NCBI GenBank assembly: GCA_021324775.1
Contig: JAJPIM010000019.1
Location: forward strand, 1 to 36,327
From: Gemmatimonadota bacterium
Lineage (GTDB): Bacteria; Gemmatimonadota; Gemmatimonadetes; Gemmatimonadales; Gemmatimonadaceae
Length of the DNA: 36,327 nucleotides
Direction of reading: 5' to 3'
In this document: one piece after another, positions 11,514-19,525 of the stretch
How the letters are laid out: every line of letters starts with the position of its first letter
Numbering within the stretch: position 1 is the stretch's first letter
Translations under genes and position numbers: made by a program
Notes under the pieces: generated by a model
Seen by the model: the letters and a program-made list of their open reading frames with translations, nothing else
The model's database searches: none
Told to the model about the DNA's origin: nothing

Positions 11514-12758
11514 CTATTGGCTGTTTTTTGCGGCCGTGGGACGGCGGTGTTTGGGGTGCGTGATGGCGTGACCCTTCGGGGGCACTTTAGCCGTCGTCGC
11601 GGGTGTCGCGGCGCCGGCGCTCACCTGTCTCGTGGCCAGCGTCCAGACTCCGGCGACGGCGGCGAGGGCGATGGTCACGAGTGCGATGAACGCCGCGATC
11701 TGGCGGGGCCGGATCGTCGGGATTGAAATGCTGGGCCGCGGCAGACGCGGGAAGTAGCGGGAGCGGAGCAGCCGTCGCGGATCGAACGACTCGATGGTGA
11801 TGCCTCTCGCCTTATCGTCTTCCATGCCGGCATACGGCATCTCAAGACGGCGGGCCAGCGTGCGCCACGCATCGTCCTCGTTCACGAGCCGCTCCACGAC
11901 GAGGCGTGGGGCGGCCCATGCGGCGCGCATCGCCTCCAGCGCGCGCGGCTCGCCTTTGGCTTCCACGACATCCAACTCCAGCGACGCCTGTTCGGCGGGA
12001 ATACATTCGCCGGCCAGGTATCCCTCGATGCGCTCGGGATCGATCGTGGTGAATCGCTCGCTGCCTTCGATCGCTTCGCGAGTCGCGGGCGCCGTGGACC
12101 ACGCGTTGATCATGTCGTAGGGCGATCCGAGCCGGCGGCGCATGGCCTGGGCGGACGGCGTGATCTGCGAGTGGACCGTGCGGACGTTCATGCCCAGCAC
12201 CGTCGCGATCTCGGCGCGTGTGAGGTGATCGGTCCAGCGCATGTAGGCGACGACGCGCGACCGGCCTGGCAGGCGCGCGATGGCGACTGTCACCGACGCT
12301 TCCAACTCTTCGGCAGCAACGCCGTCGTCGGTGTTGACGCGATCGAGGTCGGGGATGTACGACGGGCCTTCGGGCGGAAGACCGGCGTGCCAGCGTGATT
12401 CGCGGTGTGTGCGGTGCAGCGCTTCGAGGGCGACGCGATGTGCCGAGGCGAAGAGGTTACCGCGAACCGTGCCGTGGAACGCCCAACTGTGGCGTCCTCG
12501 CCAGAGGCGGGCGAAGACCTCGCCGACCACCGATTGCGCGGCGCCCAGCGACTGGACGTATCGGTGGGCGAATGCGGTGAGGGGGCGGACGTAGAGCCGG
12601 AAGAGCGACTCGAAGGCCGGCTGATTTCCCCCGCGGACGCGTTCGATCCATTCTCGGTCCTCGGGCACGAGGACCAACGGCGCGGCGCGACTGGGCGCGG
12701 CCGGCTCTTCGGCCGGTTGCGGCCGAGGAACCCGAGCGCGGGGAGGGCGACGCCCCAT
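11514..12758 (-). CDS. ECF sigma factor fused to a FecR-type anti-sigma segment and membrane anchor
   Basis: 414 residues from ATG 12758, chosen because AGGTG lies six bases upstream and the 34 residues before it look non-coding. Residues about 45-92 are sigma region 2 (AFESLFRLYVRPLTAFAHRY, then VGEVFARLWRGR). Residues about 152-212 are region 4 (AIARLPGRSRVVAYMRWTD, LTRAEIATVLGMNVRTVHSQ). A second module follows: DPERIEGYLAGECIPAEQ (240-257), ALEAMRAAW (273-281) and EDDAWRTLARRLEMP (294-308). These are the hallmarks of the cytoplasmic part of FecR-type anti-sigma factors. A membrane helix is at about 354-376, then only about 38 residues of Ala/Thr/Lys-rich tail where a FecR periplasmic domain would be expected. 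ECF sigma and FecR-type anti-sigma are normally separate, adjacent genes. The fused product would be a membrane-tethered, self-inhibited sigma factor. The domain reading is by eye. Confidence 0.82.
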   Translation of the reverse strand: MGRRPPRARVPRPQPAEEPAAPSRAAPLVLVPEDREWIERVRGGNQPAFESLFRLYVRPLTAFAHRYVQSLGAAQSVVGEVFARLWRGRHSWAFHGTVRGNLFASAHRVALEALHRTHRESRWHAGLPPEGPSYIPDLDRVNTDDGVAAEELEASVTVAIARLPGRSRVVAYMRWTDHLTRAEIATVLGMNVRTVHSQITPSAQAMRRRLGSPYDMINAWSTAPATREAIEGSERFTTIDPERIEGYLAGECIPAEQASLELDVVEAKGEPRALEAMRAAWAAPRLVVERLVNEDDAWRTLARRLEMPYAGMEDDKARGITIESFDPRRLLRSRYFPRLPRPSISIPTIRPRQIAAFIALVTIALAAVAGVWTLATRQVSAGAATPATTAKVPPKGHAITHPKHRRPTAAKNSQ

Positions 12759-12993
12759 ACACGGCACCTGCGGAGGGAGATCGCACCCGTCCCCGGGGAA
12801 CGGGGACCGCCACGACCGGAGACGCGGAATCGTTGGCCGGCCGAGGAGCCGGCCCGCCAACAGCGAGGCCTGACGCTACGCCCGGAATGGGCCGGGCGCA
12901 AGCGTGTCAGCGGTATCAGTCCCGGGGGTTGGTTATGAGCACGGGCGGCGTTCGATGGTGCTGATTACCGCTCGCCTTGGTGGCAAGGACGGA
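12759..12993. other. Upstream region of the sigma fusion, no gene seen
   Basis: About 235 bp between the sigma-fusion start and the family A palindrome. The sigma frame stays open to 12860, but the added residues are arginine/proline-rich and look like untranslated sequence. A short GC-rich inverted repeat lies at about 12836-12858. The minus frame coming through the 48-bp array ends at 12916. The promoter of the sigma fusion should lie here; I cannot place it. Confidence 0.35.
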
Positions 12994-13239
12994 GGGCCGG
13001 TGGCGACCGGCCCCTACCAGGGCTGGGTTGGGGAGCGTGCCGACGGGTGATTTCGCGGCGGCGTTACCGGACGGGCTGGGATGCGTGCCGACGGGTGATT
13101 TCGCGGCGGCGTTACCGGACGGGCTGGAATGCGTGCCGACGGGTGATTTCGCGGCGGCGGTACCGGACGGGCTGGGATGCATGCCGACAGGTGATTTCGC
13201 GGCGGCGTTACCGGACGGGCTGGGGTGCGTGCCGCCGGG
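12916..13239 (-). other. Open frame continuing the DinB gene beyond its stop through the 48-bp array
   Basis: After the DinB stop (TAA, 13240-13242) the same frame stays open for 107 codons to a stop at 12916-12918. It passes through four 16-residue repeats and then the family A palindrome. Every other unit has TCA (Ser) at the position of the TAA. This may be a former repetitive C-terminal tail cut off by a TCA-to-TAA change, or non-coding repeats that keep frame because 48 is a multiple of three. I see no independent start with an SD. Confidence 0.5.
12994..13022 (+). repeat. Family A palindrome copy 1 (REP-like)
   Basis: GGGCCGGT and ACCGGCCC form an eight-base stem around GGCG (12994-13013), followed by CCTACCAGGG. 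The same arrangement recurs at 21350 and 32744. Read on the minus strand, a GTAG tetranucleotide precedes the hairpin, as in RAYT-associated REP sequences. It directly abuts the 48-bp tandem array. Confidence 0.7.
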
Positions 13240-13254
13240 TTATTTCGCGGCGGC
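13037..13254 (-). repeat. 48-bp tandem repeat array, about 4.5 units
   Basis: Units begin at 13037, 13085, 13133, 13181 and 13229, exactly 48 bases apart, with only a few substitutions. The consensus begins GTGCCGACGGGTGATTTCGC and continues with a GGCGGCG, TTACC, GGACGGGCTGGGAT pattern. The last unit includes the final codons of the DinB gene (13240-13254). On the minus strand every unit encodes 16 residues of the pattern AAAKSPVGTHPSPSG plus one variable residue. Confidence 0.95.
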
Positions 13255-13707
13255 GCGTTTCAGAATCGCGATCTGGCCCGCGTGATAGAGCGTGTGTTGC
13301 AGGACCCCGTGGAGCTGCACGTACAGCGTGTGGGGTTTGCCAGGCGTGCGGTCTTCGAGGTGCGATTCGCCGAGTGCGAGCGCGGCGCGCCGGAGCTCGC
13401 CGTGTGAGCGTTCGAGGGCGGCGACCGCTTCGTTCCATGCGGCGGCGCTGGGCGGGGCGGACGCTGGCCAATCTTCCGCGGGCGTCGGCTCCACGACCTC
13501 TCCGGCTACGCCGCGGCGCGCGATCTCCGCCCATGCGGTCATATGCAACACCAACTCCCAGATCGTGTGCGCGTTCGGGATCGGCCGCGCGGCGGCCATC
13601 TCGGCCGTCACATCCGCCAACAGCGCGCGGACGGGCGGCCCGAGCCACGCGTCGCCTTCGACGCCGCGATAGAACTGGTCCGCAATGCGGTCACATTCGG
13701 TGGTCAC
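13240..13707 (-). CDS. DinB-family protein
   Basis: 155 residues from GTG 13707. It is a four-helix-bundle DinB/YfiT-like protein with the expected metal ligands: a His in ELVLHMTAW (about residue 55) and two in HGVLQHTLYHAGQI near the C-terminus. DinB proteins are putative metal-dependent, often thiol-dependent, transferases; some act with bacillithiol or mycothiol. The substrate here is unknown. It ends in KRAAAK, inside the first unit of the 48-bp array. It is the last gene of the minus-strand run containing PqqD, nucleotidyltransferase and kinase, 104 bp behind PqqD, so co-transcription is possible but not certain. Confidence 0.9.
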   Translation of the reverse strand: MTTECDRIADQFYRGVEGDAWLGPPVRALLADVTAEMAAARPIPNAHTIWELVLHMTAWAEIARRGVAGEVVEPTPAEDWPASAPPSAAAWNEAVAALERSHGELRRAALALGESHLEDRTPGKPHTLYVQLHGVLQHTLYHAGQIAILKRAAAK

Positions 13708-13811: not shown

Positions 13812-14084
13812 CTATCCCGCCGCTGAATCGCGCAGCAATCCCGCGGCCGTGAGCTGGGTGAGCAAGCCGGTGACGGCCGTAACCGCTTCGTCGCGAGAGA
13901 TGTCGTATTCCGCGGCAATCGTGGCGATTGCGCGCTCCGGATCGCCATGCTCCTCGAGCAATGACCAGATGCGGGCACCCGTCTCGTTGAGCGAGTAGTA
14001 GCGTTTCGTGCCGGTATGGAGCACGACGCCGCCGCCTGGCACGCCGGCAAACACCGCGTCGGCGGTAGGTGCGACTCGCGTCAC
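13812..14084 (-). CDS. PqqD-like protein (RiPP recognition element fold)
   Basis: 90 residues from GTG 14084. The sequence has the PqqD layout: an N-terminal beta part (VVLHTGTKRYYSLNETGARIWSLLEE), then helices (AIATIAAEYDISRDEAVTAV, LLTQLTAAGLL). PqqD-family proteins act as peptide chaperones that bind RiPP precursor leader peptides and present them to modifying enzymes. In paeninodin-type lasso peptide clusters the corresponding protein is B1. The start codon overlaps the stop of the nucleotidyltransferase gene by four bases (GTGA), which suggests translational coupling. No precursor peptide gene is visible nearby. Confidence 0.9.
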   Translation of the reverse strand: MTRVAPTADAVFAGVPGGGVVLHTGTKRYYSLNETGARIWSLLEEHGDPERAIATIAAEYDISRDEAVTAVTGLLTQLTAAGLLRDSAAG

Positions 14085-15289
14085 CGTGAATCCGGTGGAC
14101 GGGGCGTGGCGGCGGCGGACGAGGCGCGAGCGCGTTCAGCCTCCGGTGGCAGCCATTGGCCGGCGATCATCTGGACGGCGCGCCGCGGCGCGGACACGCC
14201 TCTCCCGATCAGCCGCAGGATCGCACCTGGCGCGCCCTCGGCGATCTGGCTGAGTGCGAGCACCCGGGGATCGGCGCCCGCGGGTACGCCGGGTTGGGGC
14301 GAGGCGATGAGGCGCGCGCGGCCTACGCGGCCGATGCGACGCCAGGCGCGTGTTTCGGCGGCAAGGTCCGGCTCCCAACCCGCCATGCCGAGTGAGACGG
14401 CCGCCATGACCATCGTCGTGAGCGCGCGGCGGTCATCGTGGTTGGCGACGAACCGCATCGCCTCGCCGGCGTCCTGCGTTGCAGCTTCAGTAGTCCAGGC
14501 AGACGCGAGGTCGATGACATCGCGCAGCCGGAACCGGAGTGTGCGATGCACGACGACGGCGTGCTCCAGCGTGTGGAGCCAGACCGCCATCGCGCCGGGG
14601 ATTTCCAGCGTGGCGCCGCCCAATGGAACGCTGCGCGTGCCCTCCCAGATGCGGGCGTCCAGCGGCGATCCCGCGTCGGCCAATCGTTCGTGGATCTCGA
14701 TCGGCAGGCTGTCCGCGCGCACGAGCGACGGCAGGTGGCGCCCGGGCGTCCCGGCCGGATCGGGTATGTAGCCGAGCTTCGACTGCAGGGCCGCGTGCAG
14801 CGCAGCGGCCTGTGGAGCGGAGACGAGCAGATCGATGTCAGCCATCGTGCGCGACCCGGCGATCTCTCCGGCCAGGAGGCGTGCACTGCCCTTGAGGACG
14901 AGGACACGTGCGCCGGCATCAGCGGCGACCGGCGCCAGCTCCGCCAACTGCTGCACCATTGCGACCGCGTTGCGGAGCGCGCGTTCGCCTGCCGACCGAA
15001 TGAGCGGCAGTGCGGGTCCGAGCACATCGGCGAGAGCGGGCGTACGCCGGCGCGCGGACTCGACCCATGCGGCGCAACCTTCCAGGTCGAGCACGCGTTC
15101 CCAGGCGTCGCGTGTGATGAGCGCAGCTCTCGCGCGCTGGGCATCAGATGGCCGGCGGCCTCTCGCGATCGTCGTGAGGATGTCGTACGCGGCGCGCGAC
15201 GCCGTGATGCGCGCCGCCTGTGCGCGGAGCCCGTGCTGTGCGCGGACGGGATCACCGCGCCGTTTCGCCTGCTGCTCGCCGTATCGCAT
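14081..15289 (-). CDS. Nucleotidyltransferase family protein (PF14907-like)
   Basis: 402 residues from ATG 15289. A nucleotidyltransferase core is at about 130-190: VLVLKGSARLLAGEIAGSR followed by MADIDLLVS, the G-S and D-x-D motifs of the NTP_transf_5 family. A His/Glu-rich stretch follows (LPIEIHERL; WLHTLEHAVVVHRTLRFRLR, DVIDLASAW) that is usual in this family. The N-terminal 120 residues are helical. The last about 60 residues are Ala/Arg-rich. Homologues accompany HprK-like kinases and PqqD in paeninodin-type lasso peptide clusters and in some polysaccharide loci. It starts 27 bp behind the kinase gene and overlaps the PqqD gene by 4 bp. Confidence 0.85.
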   Translation of the reverse strand: MRYGEQQAKRRGDPVRAQHGLRAQAARITASRAAYDILTTIARGRRPSDAQRARAALITRDAWERVLDLEGCAAWVESARRRTPALADVLGPALPLIRSAGERALRNAVAMVQQLAELAPVAADAGARVLVLKGSARLLAGEIAGSRTMADIDLLVSAPQAAALHAALQSKLGYIPDPAGTPGRHLPSLVRADSLPIEIHERLADAGSPLDARIWEGTRSVPLGGATLEIPGAMAVWLHTLEHAVVVHRTLRFRLRDVIDLASAWTTEAATQDAGEAMRFVANHDDRRALTTMVMAAVSLGMAGWEPDLAAETRAWRRIGRVGRARLIASPQPGVPAGADPRVLALSQIAEGAPGAILRLIGRGVSAPRRAVQMIAGQWLPPEAERARASSAAATPRPPDSR

Positions 15290-15316
15290 GGTCGCTCGCG
15301 CTCCGGCCCGTGTGAT

Positions 15317-16165
15317 CTATGGGAGGGCCGAGGCCAGCGTGTGGTCGATGCGCTGCAACTGTGCGGGGGAGTGCACGAGGCGGAAACTAGGCACATGGAT
15401 CGCGATGTGCCGCAGTGCCGCGAGATGGGCGGGCGAGCCACCATCGGCGATCAGGACCCATGCGGACTGTTGCACGAGCTCCACCAGCGCCGCGGCGGGC
15501 GAGAGCGGTGTGATCTCATCCACTCGACCCTGCTCGACCCATACCAGGGCCGCGACGGGCGCCGAGCGGGTGCCGCGAACGGGGACCTCCGCACGCTGGC
15601 GGGGATCGCCGGGGAGCGTGCGCGCGTGGCGGGTACCGGCTTCGAGCTCGGGAAACTCCGCGATCAATCCCCTGCTGATCCGAAGTGGTTCGCGCCACCG
15701 GTAGGCAATGACCGGGCCGGTCCGTCCCGCTTCCGTGATGACACCGTCGTCGCCCAGGATCGGCCATCCCTTGCGGGCGAGTGCGTAGGCGAGCGTGGAC
15801 TTGCCGCTGCCGGTTGGCCCCGTGAGGAGCCATGCGCGTCCGGAGGGATCGACCGCGCCTGCCGCGTGGATGTAATAGCGGCGGCGCTGCCGGAGCCTGA
15901 GGATCGCACCCGCGCGGGCCAATTGGTGGCGTGAGTCGATGCTGGCGGCCTGGTATCCCGCGCCGCGGACGAGCCGTCCGCCGCGCACCCAGAGCTCCGC
16001 GTGCGTGATCTGGTGGATCAGCCGCGCGCCATCGGGCTCCGTGTAGCCGTGGATGTCATTGAACTGCCATTCGGCGATGGCTGGAGCGACAGCGCCCTCC
16101 GTGCGCTCGGACAGCGGCGCGGAGGGCGCGGGGTCGTGCATGCCGCCGGCGCTCACGGGGAGCAC
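15317..16165 (-). CDS. HPr kinase-like (HprK-related) kinase
   Basis: 282 residues from GTG 16165; ATG 16141 is an alternative start and neither has a strong SD. The core resembles the C-terminal domain of HPr kinase/phosphorylase: IHAAGAVDPSGRAWLLTG, the Walker A GPTGSGKST (about 116-124), then ILGDDGV, which matches the ADD-V motif of HprK. There is no HPr or PTS gene in the window. Family members of this size occur as peptide kinases in lasso peptide clusters of the paeninodin type, where they phosphorylate the precursor C-terminus. Order on the minus strand: propeller lipoprotein, this kinase (52 bp later), nucleotidyltransferase, PqqD. Phosphorylation of a peptide is inference from that context. 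Confidence 0.85.
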   Translation of the reverse strand: MLPVSAGGMHDPAPSAPLSERTEGAVAPAIAEWQFNDIHGYTEPDGARLIHQITHAELWVRGGRLVRGAGYQAASIDSRHQLARAGAILRLRQRRRYYIHAAGAVDPSGRAWLLTGPTGSGKSTLAYALARKGWPILGDDGVITEAGRTGPVIAYRWREPLRISRGLIAEFPELEAGTRHARTLPGDPRQRAEVPVRGTRSAPVAALVWVEQGRVDEITPLSPAAALVELVQQSAWVLIADGGSPAHLAALRHIAIHVPSFRLVHSPAQLQRIDHTLASALP

Positions 16166-16217: not shown

Positions 16218-18590
16218 CTACAGCCCGATGCCCACGAGGACGACGCCGTTGTCGCCCACGACGTAGACATTCTGCGCGGCGGTGCCGTAGATCGCACGGA
16301 ACGCCGACGTCACCGGGACCGCGAGGGGAAGCCAATTCGATCCGTCGAAGTGGAGGACCGAGCCGCCATCGCCTACGAGATAGGAATCGGTGGGCGATGT
16401 ATTCCACGTACCGTGGAAATTAGTCAGCGTGCCAGTCGTCGCGGCCGGCAGGTTGAGCGTCATGCCACTCGAGAGGCGGTAGACGACACCTGAGTCGCCG
16501 CCCACCCATACATTGGTGGGTGCCGTCCCGAACACCGACTGCAGGCCTTTGGAGTTCGCCGGCGAGAATGTCAGTGTCCGCCAGCCGGAGCCGCCCGGGT
16601 TGATGTAGGCGGTGCGGTCGTCGGCGACTGCGTAGTAGTTCTGCGTCGTCACGCCACCCCAGACACCGCGGAGATTGCCGGTGCCGGTGCGTGCCTGGAA
16701 CGACCATGACGAGCCATTCCAGTGCTCGACGAGCCCGCCGTTGCCGACGGCGTCGATGTTGTTGGCGCTGATGCCGAAGATGCTGTGGTAGCCCGTAGCG
16801 CCAGACGGCGGATTGACGACCGCCGTGCTCCAGGATCCGGTAAAGTGGGCGATGTTCCCCTGCTGTCCGACCGTGAACACATTCGTCGGGCCCGAGGCCC
16901 AGACAGCGGCCATCGAGTCATCGTCGGCAACGTAGGCATTCGTCCAGGTGGTGCCGTCGAAGTGCAGGATCGTACCGATCGTACTGGCCCAGACATCCGT
17001 TGCGCTAGTGGCGAAGACCCCGCGGATCGGCAGGCCGCTCTGGTTGGAGAGCGTGAACTGCCCGCTGGCGACCGAGAGGAATGAACCGCCTACGCCGACC
17101 GCCCAGAGCGTCGAGCCGGCGGTGCCGGACGAGATGGACGTGATCAGGAAACCGGACTTACGTGCGACCGTGCTCCACGCGGTGCCGTTGTAGTGCTGCG
17201 TGACGCCGGAGGCGCCGACGACCCAGACGTCGGATGGGCCGGTGCCGCCGAAGCCAGACAGCGTGTGGCCCGTGCCGCTCGACTGCACCGACCACGTGCT
17301 GCCGTTGAAGTGCACGACGGTGCCGAGCCCGCCCCCGGCGAACACATTCGTCGCCGACGTACCCCAGACCGTGAGGAGCGGCTCAGTCGTTGGTGAGGTG
17401 GCCTGTGACCAGAAGCTCCCATTGAAGAAGAGGATCTGGCCGTCGTCGCCGACCATCCAGACGTGCGATGCATCGGAGCCCCACACCGAGTGGAGATTGC
17501 CGGACACCGCGAAGGGGAAACTGATCTGGGACCACGACGACCCATTGTAGTGGTAGCCGATGCCGCCGTTGGCACTCGCGTAATAGTTGGCCGGTGCGCT
17601 GCCCCAGACGCCGGTGAAATTGACCGCACTGTTGAGCGCAGTGCGCCGCCAGCTCGATCCGTTCCAGTGCGCGGTGGAGCCCAATCCGCCCACCGTCCAC
17701 ACGTCGGTGCCGGATGTGCCGAATACGCTGTAGTAGTTCGCGAAGGCGAGCCCGGTGATCGGCTGCGACCATGCCGTGCCGTTGTAGTGAACGATCGTGT
17801 TGTTGATTCCGACGGCCCAGACGTCGCTGGCCGTGTTGCGCCACACCGACTCCAGCTCGTTGGACGTGACGCCCTGGCGAAGCACCTGCCACCGCAGCAC
17901 ACTGTTTTGCGCGGGGACGGCGGCGTCTACCTCGACCGAGAAGTTGAGGCCAGTGACGCCCGGGGCGAACAGGAACTGCCAATTCTCGACGGCGCTCGTC
18001 GCGCCAGCCGGGATGAACGGGGTGTACTCGAAAAACGGAACAGTGTCGCCCTGAAAGACGCCGACGCCGGACGGATTGGCGACGGTGACCACGCCGCTTC
18101 CGCCTGACGCGAACGGACCTGACGAGAAGAACGCGCGCACGGCGGTGGAGTCGGTGGTGCTGCCGTCCGTGGTCCCGATCGGCTGTGCGAGCAGGTTGGT
18201 GATGCTGGCGTTCAGCGAGAAAATGCGCGTCACACTGTCGAACGCCGGGCTCGAGATATTCAGCTCGACGTTGACCGTTTGCTTGCCGAGGATGACATCC
18301 GACGCCTTGACGCGGCCACCGCCATTGGCGGCGGTGCGCGTGCAGACGGCCGTGGGTGCCGCGTGGGATCCGGCGGGCGCGAGGCGCGCCGTGCAGAAGA
18401 ACGATCCGCGCACCGCGCGTGGACTCAGCGTGGACATCGCGCGCGTGCCGGCGGACATGGGTAGTGGTCCGTCGTTGCAGGCGACAAAGAGCGCGGCTGC
18501 GAGGATGCCTGCCAGTGTGCCCGCGCGGACGACTGTCCGGCTGCGGCGCATATGGTGCATTTGCAAGTTCGCCGACGCGCTAACTGACAT
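16218..18590 (-). CDS. Lipoprotein with 14 propeller-like repeats
   Basis: 790 residues from ATG 18590. The frame is open to 18938, but GGAGG (18600-18604) nine bases upstream of 18590 and a lipoprotein signal peptide (LAAALFVAC, then NDG) choose this start. Residues about 40-270 are a less regular beta-rich domain. From about 275 to the end there are 14 units of 33-40 residues following the pattern hydrophobic-x-x-VWG-S/T-x-x-x-x-VW-V-G-x-x-G-x-x-x-H-(Y/F/W)-N-G-(S/T)-x-W-S. This pattern resembles Ycf48-like and kelch-like propellers found in surface proteins of environmental bacteria. Fourteen units would fit two seven-bladed propellers, which is inference. It is the first gene of the minus-strand run with the kinase, nucleotidyltransferase and PqqD. 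Confidence 0.88.
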   Translation of the reverse strand: MSVSASANLQMHHMRRSRTVVRAGTLAGILAAALFVACNDGPLPMSAGTRAMSTLSPRAVRGSFFCTARLAPAGSHAAPTAVCTRTAANGGGRVKASDVILGKQTVNVELNISSPAFDSVTRIFSLNASITNLLAQPIGTTDGSTTDSTAVRAFFSSGPFASGGSGVVTVANPSGVGVFQGDTVPFFEYTPFIPAGATSAVENWQFLFAPGVTGLNFSVEVDAAVPAQNSVLRWQVLRQGVTSNELESVWRNTASDVWAVGINNTIVHYNGTAWSQPITGLAFANYYSVFGTSGTDVWTVGGLGSTAHWNGSSWRRTALNSAVNFTGVWGSAPANYYASANGGIGYHYNGSSWSQISFPFAVSGNLHSVWGSDASHVWMVGDDGQILFFNGSFWSQATSPTTEPLLTVWGTSATNVFAGGGLGTVVHFNGSTWSVQSSGTGHTLSGFGGTGPSDVWVVGASGVTQHYNGTAWSTVARKSGFLITSISSGTAGSTLWAVGVGGSFLSVASGQFTLSNQSGLPIRGVFATSATDVWASTIGTILHFDGTTWTNAYVADDDSMAAVWASGPTNVFTVGQQGNIAHFTGSWSTAVVNPPSGATGYHSIFGISANNIDAVGNGGLVEHWNGSSWSFQARTGTGNLRGVWGGVTTQNYYAVADDRTAYINPGGSGWRTLTFSPANSKGLQSVFGTAPTNVWVGGDSGVVYRLSSGMTLNLPAATTGTLTNFHGTWNTSPTDSYLVGDGGSVLHFDGSNWLPLAVPVTSAFRAIYGTAAQNVYVVGDNGVVLVGIGL

Positions 18591-18763
18591 GCTGGTCGTC
18601 CTCCAGGGGCGCGAAAAAAGAGCTGCAACGAGTACAGACCGGCCGAGGAACCGGCCGGAGATACGCGAAGCGGCCATGAACGCATGCCGCATCGTCATTA
18701 AGATTCGGCTAAGTCCGTGGCGCTGGAAGCCCGTATAAGGTACGGGCCGGTTAGGGCCGGCTT

Positions 18764-18779
18764 GGTGATATACGTCACA
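18764..18779. promoter_or_regulatory. CRP/FNR-like inverted repeat between divergent genes
   Basis: GGTGA (18764-18768), six bases, TCACA (18775-18779). On the minus strand it reads TGTGA-N6-TCACC, one base away from the CRP half-site consensus TGTGA-N6-TCACA. It lies in the 263-bp gap between the propeller lipoprotein (start 18590) and the HD hydrolase (start 18854 or 18908), where a regulator could act on both. Based on sequence pattern only; no CRP gene is in the window. Confidence 0.5.
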
Positions 18780-18853
18780 AATTTCTGCCACCTCGACGAC
18801 AAACACCTGATTCCAGTGGCACCGAATTCGGCTATCCTGGCCGATCTTTCCAG

Positions 18854-19525
18854 GTGACCAAACGGGGTGACCATCGGGCACGCTGGCATCGCACCGGCCA
18901 GCCGTCATTGACGACACGTCAGCCGGACACGCAAACATTGGAAAATCCTCATTTTTCGAGCCGCGACGATGCGCTCACCATCGTTCACGAGTACACTGCC
19001 AGCGAGTCTCTCCGGAAGCACATGCTGGCCGTTGAAGCCGCGATGCGGGCGTACGCCGCGCGCTTCGGGGAGGACCCCGACCGGTGGGGGCTGGCGGGGT
19101 TGCTTCACGACTTCGATTACGAGCGGTTTCCGAACGCTGCGCAGTCGGCGACCGAGGAGCATCCGTCTGCCGGTGTGGCGATCCTCCGGAGCCGCGGCTA
19201 CCCCGAGGACGTGCTCCGGTCGATCCTTGGCCACGCCCGGTACACTGGTGTCCCGCGGGATACTCGGATGGCCAAGGCGCTGTTCGCGGTCGACGAGCTG
19301 ACGGGACTGATCACGGCATCGGCGCTGGTGCGCCCGTCGAAGAGCGTGATCGATCTGGATGCGCGGTCCGTGCGCAAGAAGATGAAGGACAAGGCATTCG
19401 CGCGAGGTGTGAGCCGCGAGGATGTGGAGCTCGGCGCGAGCGAACTGGGTGTCGATCTGGACGAGCACATCCAGTTCGTGATCGGCGCGATGCGGGGCAT
19501 CGCGCCCGCGCTCGGGTTAGGGTAG
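18854..19525 (+). CDS. HD-domain hydrolase
   Basis: Up to 223 residues from GTG 18854; TTG 18908 (residue 19) may be the true start, as the first 30 residues look atypical. The HD domain has His56 (ESLRKHMLAVE), His85-Asp86 (GLLHDFDYERFP), His103 (EEHPSAG) and His127 (ILGHARY), and DELTGLITA further on. This is the pattern of the HDIG-type predicted hydrolases found as stand-alone proteins in many bacteria. They are thought to act on phosphate esters or nucleotides, but the substrate is unknown. The metallophosphoesterase gene starts 4 bp after the stop, so the two are very likely co-transcribed. Confidence 0.85.
   Translation: MTKRGDHRARWHRTGQPSLTTRQPDTQTLENPHFSSRDDALTIVHEYTASESLRKHMLAVEAAMRAYAARFGEDPDRWGLAGLLHDFDYERFPNAAQSATEEHPSAGVAILRSRGYPEDVLRSILGHARYTGVPRDTRMAKALFAVDELTGLITASALVRPSKSVIDLDARSVRKKMKDKAFARGVSREDVELGASELGVDLDEHIQFVIGAMRGIAPALGLG

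Follow-up and report, generated by a model that had tools for sequence, protein, structure and literature searches.

A predicted membrane protein joining a FecI-like ECF sigma factor and a FecR-type anti-sigma segment in Gemmatimonadota

A sigma factor fused to its anti-sigma factor works as a one-component system. One such protein, IutY of Pseudomonas putida (ECF243), combines a sigma factor with a FecR-type regulator, is tethered to the membrane and is activated by proteolysis (PMC5411451, PMC8999054, PMC9249621). In the ECF48, ECF52 and ECF53 groups, the sigma factor is fused to an anti-sigma domain of the zinc-finger type and to membrane helices (PMC8999054, PMC5826349). We compared these systems with a protein encoded in the window, that is, the whole stretch of 36,327 nucleotides analysed here (contig JAJPIM010000019.1 of a Gemmatimonadota bacterium). 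Like the window protein, IutY is one polypeptide that unites an ECF sigma factor, a FecR-type regulator and a single membrane helix (PMC5411451, PMC8999054). In IutY, however, the helix follows sigma-4 (to residue ~164) and leads into the FecR periplasmic domain, and no anti-sigma segment is indicated on the cytoplasmic side (PMC9249621), whereas the window protein has the cytoplasmic segment and is without a FecR-like periplasmic signal-receiving domain. In addition, the IutY gene adjoins that of the TonB receptor iutA, whereas the window fusion has no adjacent receptor or STN gene. ECF52 (SCO4117 of Streptomyces coelicolor), ECF48 and ECF53 also have sigma factor, anti-sigma domain and helix in one chain (PMC5826349, PMC8999054), but the anti-sigma domain of the ECF52 type is a zinc finger, while the window protein has a FecR-like segment and no zf-HC2 match. 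These proteins are actinobacterial, and the extracellular part of SCO4117 is large, rich in proline and includes a carbohydrate-binding domain; the outer part of the window protein is a 42-residue tail. The separate FecI/FecR pairs of Gemmatimonadota share with the fusion a homologous sigma factor and anti-sigma N-terminal part in the same order, but they are two genes and their FecR has a periplasmic domain.

By its domain content, the window fusion is nearly the complement of IutY, since it keeps the FecR cytoplasmic part and drops the periplasmic sensor, and it fits fully neither the IutY nor the ECF52 definition. The original prediction knew of no such arrangement, a view that has to be narrowed because IutY and the ECF48/52/53 fusions precede it. 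The principle of sigma/anti-sigma fusion is already known and this domain content is a new twist; a sigma fusion that keeps the FecR N-terminal part and loses the periplasmic part was not described in the literature searched, which is weak evidence as most subscription papers were outside the search. The fusion is a naturally occurring case in which to ask whether the cytoplasmic segment of FecR acts as brake or as activator, and whether a short tail in the periplasm is enough by itself for a protein to be an RseP substrate.

Domain composition of the fused protein

The fused protein scored above the Pfam cut-offs for Sigma70_r4_2 (27.3 bits) and Sigma70_ECF (23.1 bits), and its Sigma70_r2 score was just at the cut-off of 24. 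The best curated family of the sigma part was TIGR02985 (Bacteroidetes/FecI-like sigma-70; E 1e-24, residues 48-210), with a score below the curated cut-off of that family; sigma factors of this FecI-like type pair with FecR. Residues 32-211 align along both domains with the solved SigW, AlgU/SigH and sigma-E (phmmer), and sigma-2 in an AlphaFold model of residues 32-310 matched sigma-E region 2 with a TM of 0.82-0.84 (Foldseek). As in ECF (FecI-like) sigma factors, regions 2 and 4 are joined by a short linker and region 3 is absent.

Residues 238-306 had no direct match in Pfam, PF16220 included, and the anti-sigma segment gave no significant match to solved structures. For this reason, the homology of the segment rests on a profile of FecR proteins from related genomes. 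These proteins were picked via their periplasmic domain and only the N-terminal parts of separate FecR proteins entered the profile, the fused proteins being left out. The three fused proteins scored 37.6-38.7 bits with it, compared with 9.7 for the best of 900 shuffled extensions. Alignment of the FecR N-terminal part with the fused segment by hhalign gave 98.3% over ~78 columns, covering the anti-sigma region and not the helix. When 18 members were aligned jointly, half of them (9/18) matched DUF4880, the FecR N-terminal family, and 6/18 matched the zf-HC2 anti-sigma family. The segment displays the motif YLAGE...PAE and, in its fourth helix, (D/E)xAWRxLARR. A helix-2 Trp common in separate FecR proteins is Asp or Glu in the fused versions, and because of this loss sigma binding by the fused segment may be altered.

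The only strongly hydrophobic stretch of the fused protein is residues 354-372 (mean hydropathy ~2.5). The FecR periplasmic domain is missing, since only 42 residues follow this helix (37 and 59 in the two relatives). Pfam detected PF04773 neither in the fused protein nor elsewhere on the same contig, and the idea of a domain concealed in the tail or in an adjoining gene was rejected on these grounds. The protein has the cytoplasmic N-terminal segment of sigma-binding type that characterises the FecR family (by profile) and is not a full-length FecR. Domain, profile and hydropathy evidence together bear out the original prediction that sigma regions 2 and 4, a FecR-type cytoplasmic segment and one helix share a frame and that the FecR periplasmic domain is missing; the domain searches it had proposed recovered both sigma regions, with Sigma70_r2 only at the cut-off, and gave no match to the zf-HC2 or FecR N-terminal models. 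The gene encodes a FecI-like ECF sigma factor joined to a cytoplasmic FecR-type segment and one helix, without a periplasmic sensor (Table 1).

Table 1. Positions of the fusion gene, its domains and its upstream elements in the window.
Feature	Position	Strand	Remarks
Fused ECF sigma / FecR-type anti-sigma membrane protein	11514..12758	-	414 aa + stop; single open frame; same fusion in L010/L086 and L011/L087
Start ATG	12756-12758	-	Fusion gene
Shine-Dalgarno-like AGGTG	12765..12769	-	Identical in nearest relative
Sigma region 2, residues 32-121	12396..12665	-	Pfam, NCBIfam, PDB sequence match, Foldseek against sigma-E region 2
Sigma region 4, residues 152-211	12126..12305	-	Sigma70_r4_2 over cut-off; SigW/sigma-E alignment
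Sigma/anti-sigma junction, residues 212-237	12048..12125	-	Stop-free in all 3 species
FecR-type (class I) anti-sigma segment, residues 238-306	11841..12047	-	FecR N-part profile; dN/dS 0.05
Transmembrane helix, residues 354-372	11643..11699	-	Hydropathy 2.48 over 19 residues; dN/dS 0.07
Basic C-terminal tail, 42 residues, predicted periplasmic	11517..11642	-	Occupies place of FecR periplasmic domain
Promoter-like element TTGCGC-N17-TAGCGT	12873..12901	-	Counterparts with 17-nt spacing, 114-120 nt before ATG, in all 3 species
DinB-superfamily gene	13240..13707	-	Directly upstream of fusion gene; order kept in all 3 genomes of the genus only

Conservation, origin and genomic setting

The survey for the fusion covered 99 relatives, the whole genus and 394 genomes of the class. 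The uninterrupted fusion was also present in both other genomes of the genus, a little-known one of soil bacteria (3/3 genomes, independent assemblies), where the fused proteins are 77% (L010/L086, record PMAE01000029) and 47-49% (L011/L087, record JAJPIS010000107) identical to the window protein. No fusion was seen outside the genus among these 394 genomes; in the rest of the class, two separate genes that lie side by side encode the homologous sigma factor and a full-length FecR, and matches that extend well from the sigma into the anti-sigma part cross a stop. Besides the two congeners, a scan of the genome collection for distant fusions returned only four sigma factors, all of them separate (Opitutaceae, Puniceicoccaceae). 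In other genera the sigma and FecR genes are several times in the same frame with a stop between them. Since the separate pairs sit adjacent, several of them in frame across one stop, loss of a stop would be a simple origin of the fusion. We also considered whether this locus had held a split pair before the fusion and rejected the idea, as the DinB homologue of other genera has no sigma gene within 1.5 kb. These data agree with the earlier statement that sigma and anti-sigma factors are normally adjacent genes, and the conservation in related genomes that had been suggested as a check was found. The converse, that the two parts are always separate in relatives and the fusion thus spurious, holds outside the genus and fails within it, where all three genomes carry the fusion.

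Between the two nearest species, dN/dS was 0.02 for sigma-2, 0.08 for sigma-4, 0.05 for the anti-sigma segment and 0.07 for the helix; both modules and the helix are under strong purifying selection. The tail is barely constrained between these species, and in more distant comparisons the junction, the stretch before the helix and the tail vary freely.

The neighbours of the fusion gene in the window are DinB, PqqD, nucleotidyltransferase, HPr-kinase-like and DUF4153 genes. The order HPr-kinase-like, nucleotidyltransferase, PqqD, DinB and fusion gene is conserved in the genus, and the downstream genes differ among the three genomes. No promoter was found upstream of the fusion gene by a strict consensus scan. 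The promoter-like element of Table 1 was picked by eye after viewing the sequences, which makes its shuffle control optimistic; because it was chosen in this way and seems unlike an ECF-type promoter, autoregulation is not indicated.

At positions 13031-13255, between the DinB and fusion genes, a 48-bp unit is repeated in tandem (4.7 copies, 93% matches), and the spacer at this site is much shorter in the two relatives. The PqqD-like, NTP_transf_5 nucleotidyltransferase and HPr-kinase-like P-loop genes stand in a row at 13812-16165 (minus strand), with their order kept in 3/3 genomes of the genus, and the row resembles peptide-modification or capsule-type clusters. A large repeat protein with beta-propeller-like DVWxVG/HYNG repeats is encoded at 16218-18938 (minus strand) and also occurs in L080, and the corresponding place in L079 yielded no match to it.

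Proposed mode of action and alternatives

We lean towards a model in which a sensor-less FecI-like sigma factor is held at the membrane, clamped in cis by the FecR-type segment and freed by an RseP-type protease. The original prediction likewise proposed a tethered sigma factor, which would need proteolysis or a conformational signal to act. In class I anti-sigma domains three helices bind sigma-4 and a fourth binds sigma-2 (PMC7406223), and FecR residues 9-59 bind FecI sigma-4 (PMC9249621). By analogy, the FecR-type segment would fold back with its first helices on sigma-4 and its fourth helix on sigma-2, keeping the sigma factor off RNA polymerase, and helix 354-372 would anchor the whole protein in the inner membrane. 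The short tail would expose the helix to a site-2 protease; the same genome encodes an RseP-type M50 protease with HExxH, beside a dxr-like gene, and its cut would free the sigma factor with or without the anti-sigma segment. As the receptor-contacting domain is absent, regulation would act through how fast the protein is cut, or how fast the segment is later degraded in the cytoplasm, and not through a TonB-receptor signal. Release by RseP is favoured by the tail lengths of 42, 37 and 59 residues and by the presence of this protease. When IutY is shortened to about 50 periplasmic residues or fewer, it is active without Prc, and RseP is required by those variants in which periplasmic residues are retained (PMC5411451); the tail of the window protein resembles in length the IutY truncations processed by RseP without Prc. 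Should RseP cut every substrate with a short tail, the window protein could be active constitutively, with no obvious switch.

AlphaFold modelled the anti-sigma segment with low confidence both in the whole protein (mean pLDDT 56.5) and in residues 32-310 (46.8), with only three fused sequences as input. In the shorter model the fourth helix (~281-310) reached 54-75 and the rest of the segment stayed below 45; the gain in confidence of the fourth helix is a hint, not evidence, for packing in cis. A more tentative proposal is that the FecR sigma-binding part has been hard-wired in cis and the input shifted from the periplasmic domain to the cleavage step, in which case the fusion would correspond in nature to the IutY truncations made in the laboratory and would have been fixed in one genus by selection.

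The main alternative concerns the sign of the segment's effect. FecI needs E. coli FecR1-85 in order to function, and N-terminal pieces of FecR activate it in the absence of a signal (PMC9249621), so that the fused segment might be a built-in activator (pro-sigma) which stabilises sigma-4, the fusion yielding a constitutively active or membrane-localised sigma factor. With the sensor lost and the tail short, release would not depend on a signal (PMC5411451), and between the two nearest species the constraint on the segment is as strong as that on the sigma part. We nevertheless regard a built-in activator as possible but doubtful, because most class I anti-sigma segments inhibit, and because the retained helix is under constraint; a pure activator could do without one. 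The FpvR N-terminal fragment inhibits as well (PMC9249621), and for this reason the sign of the effect is not readable from homology; FpvR-like inhibition or FecR-like activation cannot be read from the sequence.

The constrained helix would suit an unlinked periplasmic or membrane partner that binds the helix or tail, shields it from proteases and replaces the lost FecR domain in trans, as in the protecting factor postulated for IutY (PMC5411451). Such a partner is unlikely, since no conserved gene of that kind adjoins the fusion and the downstream genes vary, the tail is almost without conserved sequence, and neither the only STN receptor domain found in the genome (contig C27) nor any of the three FecR domains found shares a contig with the fusion gene. 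Decay of a FecI-FecR pair, with the stop lost, the sensor degraded and a product without regulatory role, would account for the absent sensor domain, the low Pfam scores and the weak conservation of tail and linker. This explanation is hardly credible for a gene that is intact in three species down to 47-49% identity, with dN/dS of 0.02-0.08 in sigma, anti-sigma and helix and with its promoter-like element and synteny conserved. Finally, a sequencing or assembly artefact that erased a stop between two genes, named at the outset as a way to refute the fusion, found no support even though the genome to which the window belongs is a draft in 46 contigs, and is excluded for practical purposes by the same uninterrupted frame in two other, independent assemblies and by the substitutions that separate the two nearest species across the junction, which are biased to third positions.

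A second type of fusion in Gemmatimonadaceae

A different combination was observed in FecR-like proteins of ~430 residues with an N-terminal sigma region 2-like domain (L057:1126-2412, minus strand; L061, L071, L077, L124-L134). The domain was recognised by hmmsearch (E 2e-15 for L057) and hhalign (98.3%, nine members); it replaces the N-terminal segment, and region 4 is absent. The order is sigma-2-like domain, helix-4-like DxxAW motif, membrane helix and FecR periplasmic domain (PF04773, E 4e-16). No separate ECF gene was found within 1.5 kb of these genes in L057, L061, L071 and L077. Near full-length frames of this kind are present in roughly 80 of 179 Gemmatimonadaceae genomes, none of them in the genus of the window, and they form a mirror image of the window fusion that is possibly the more striking of the two.
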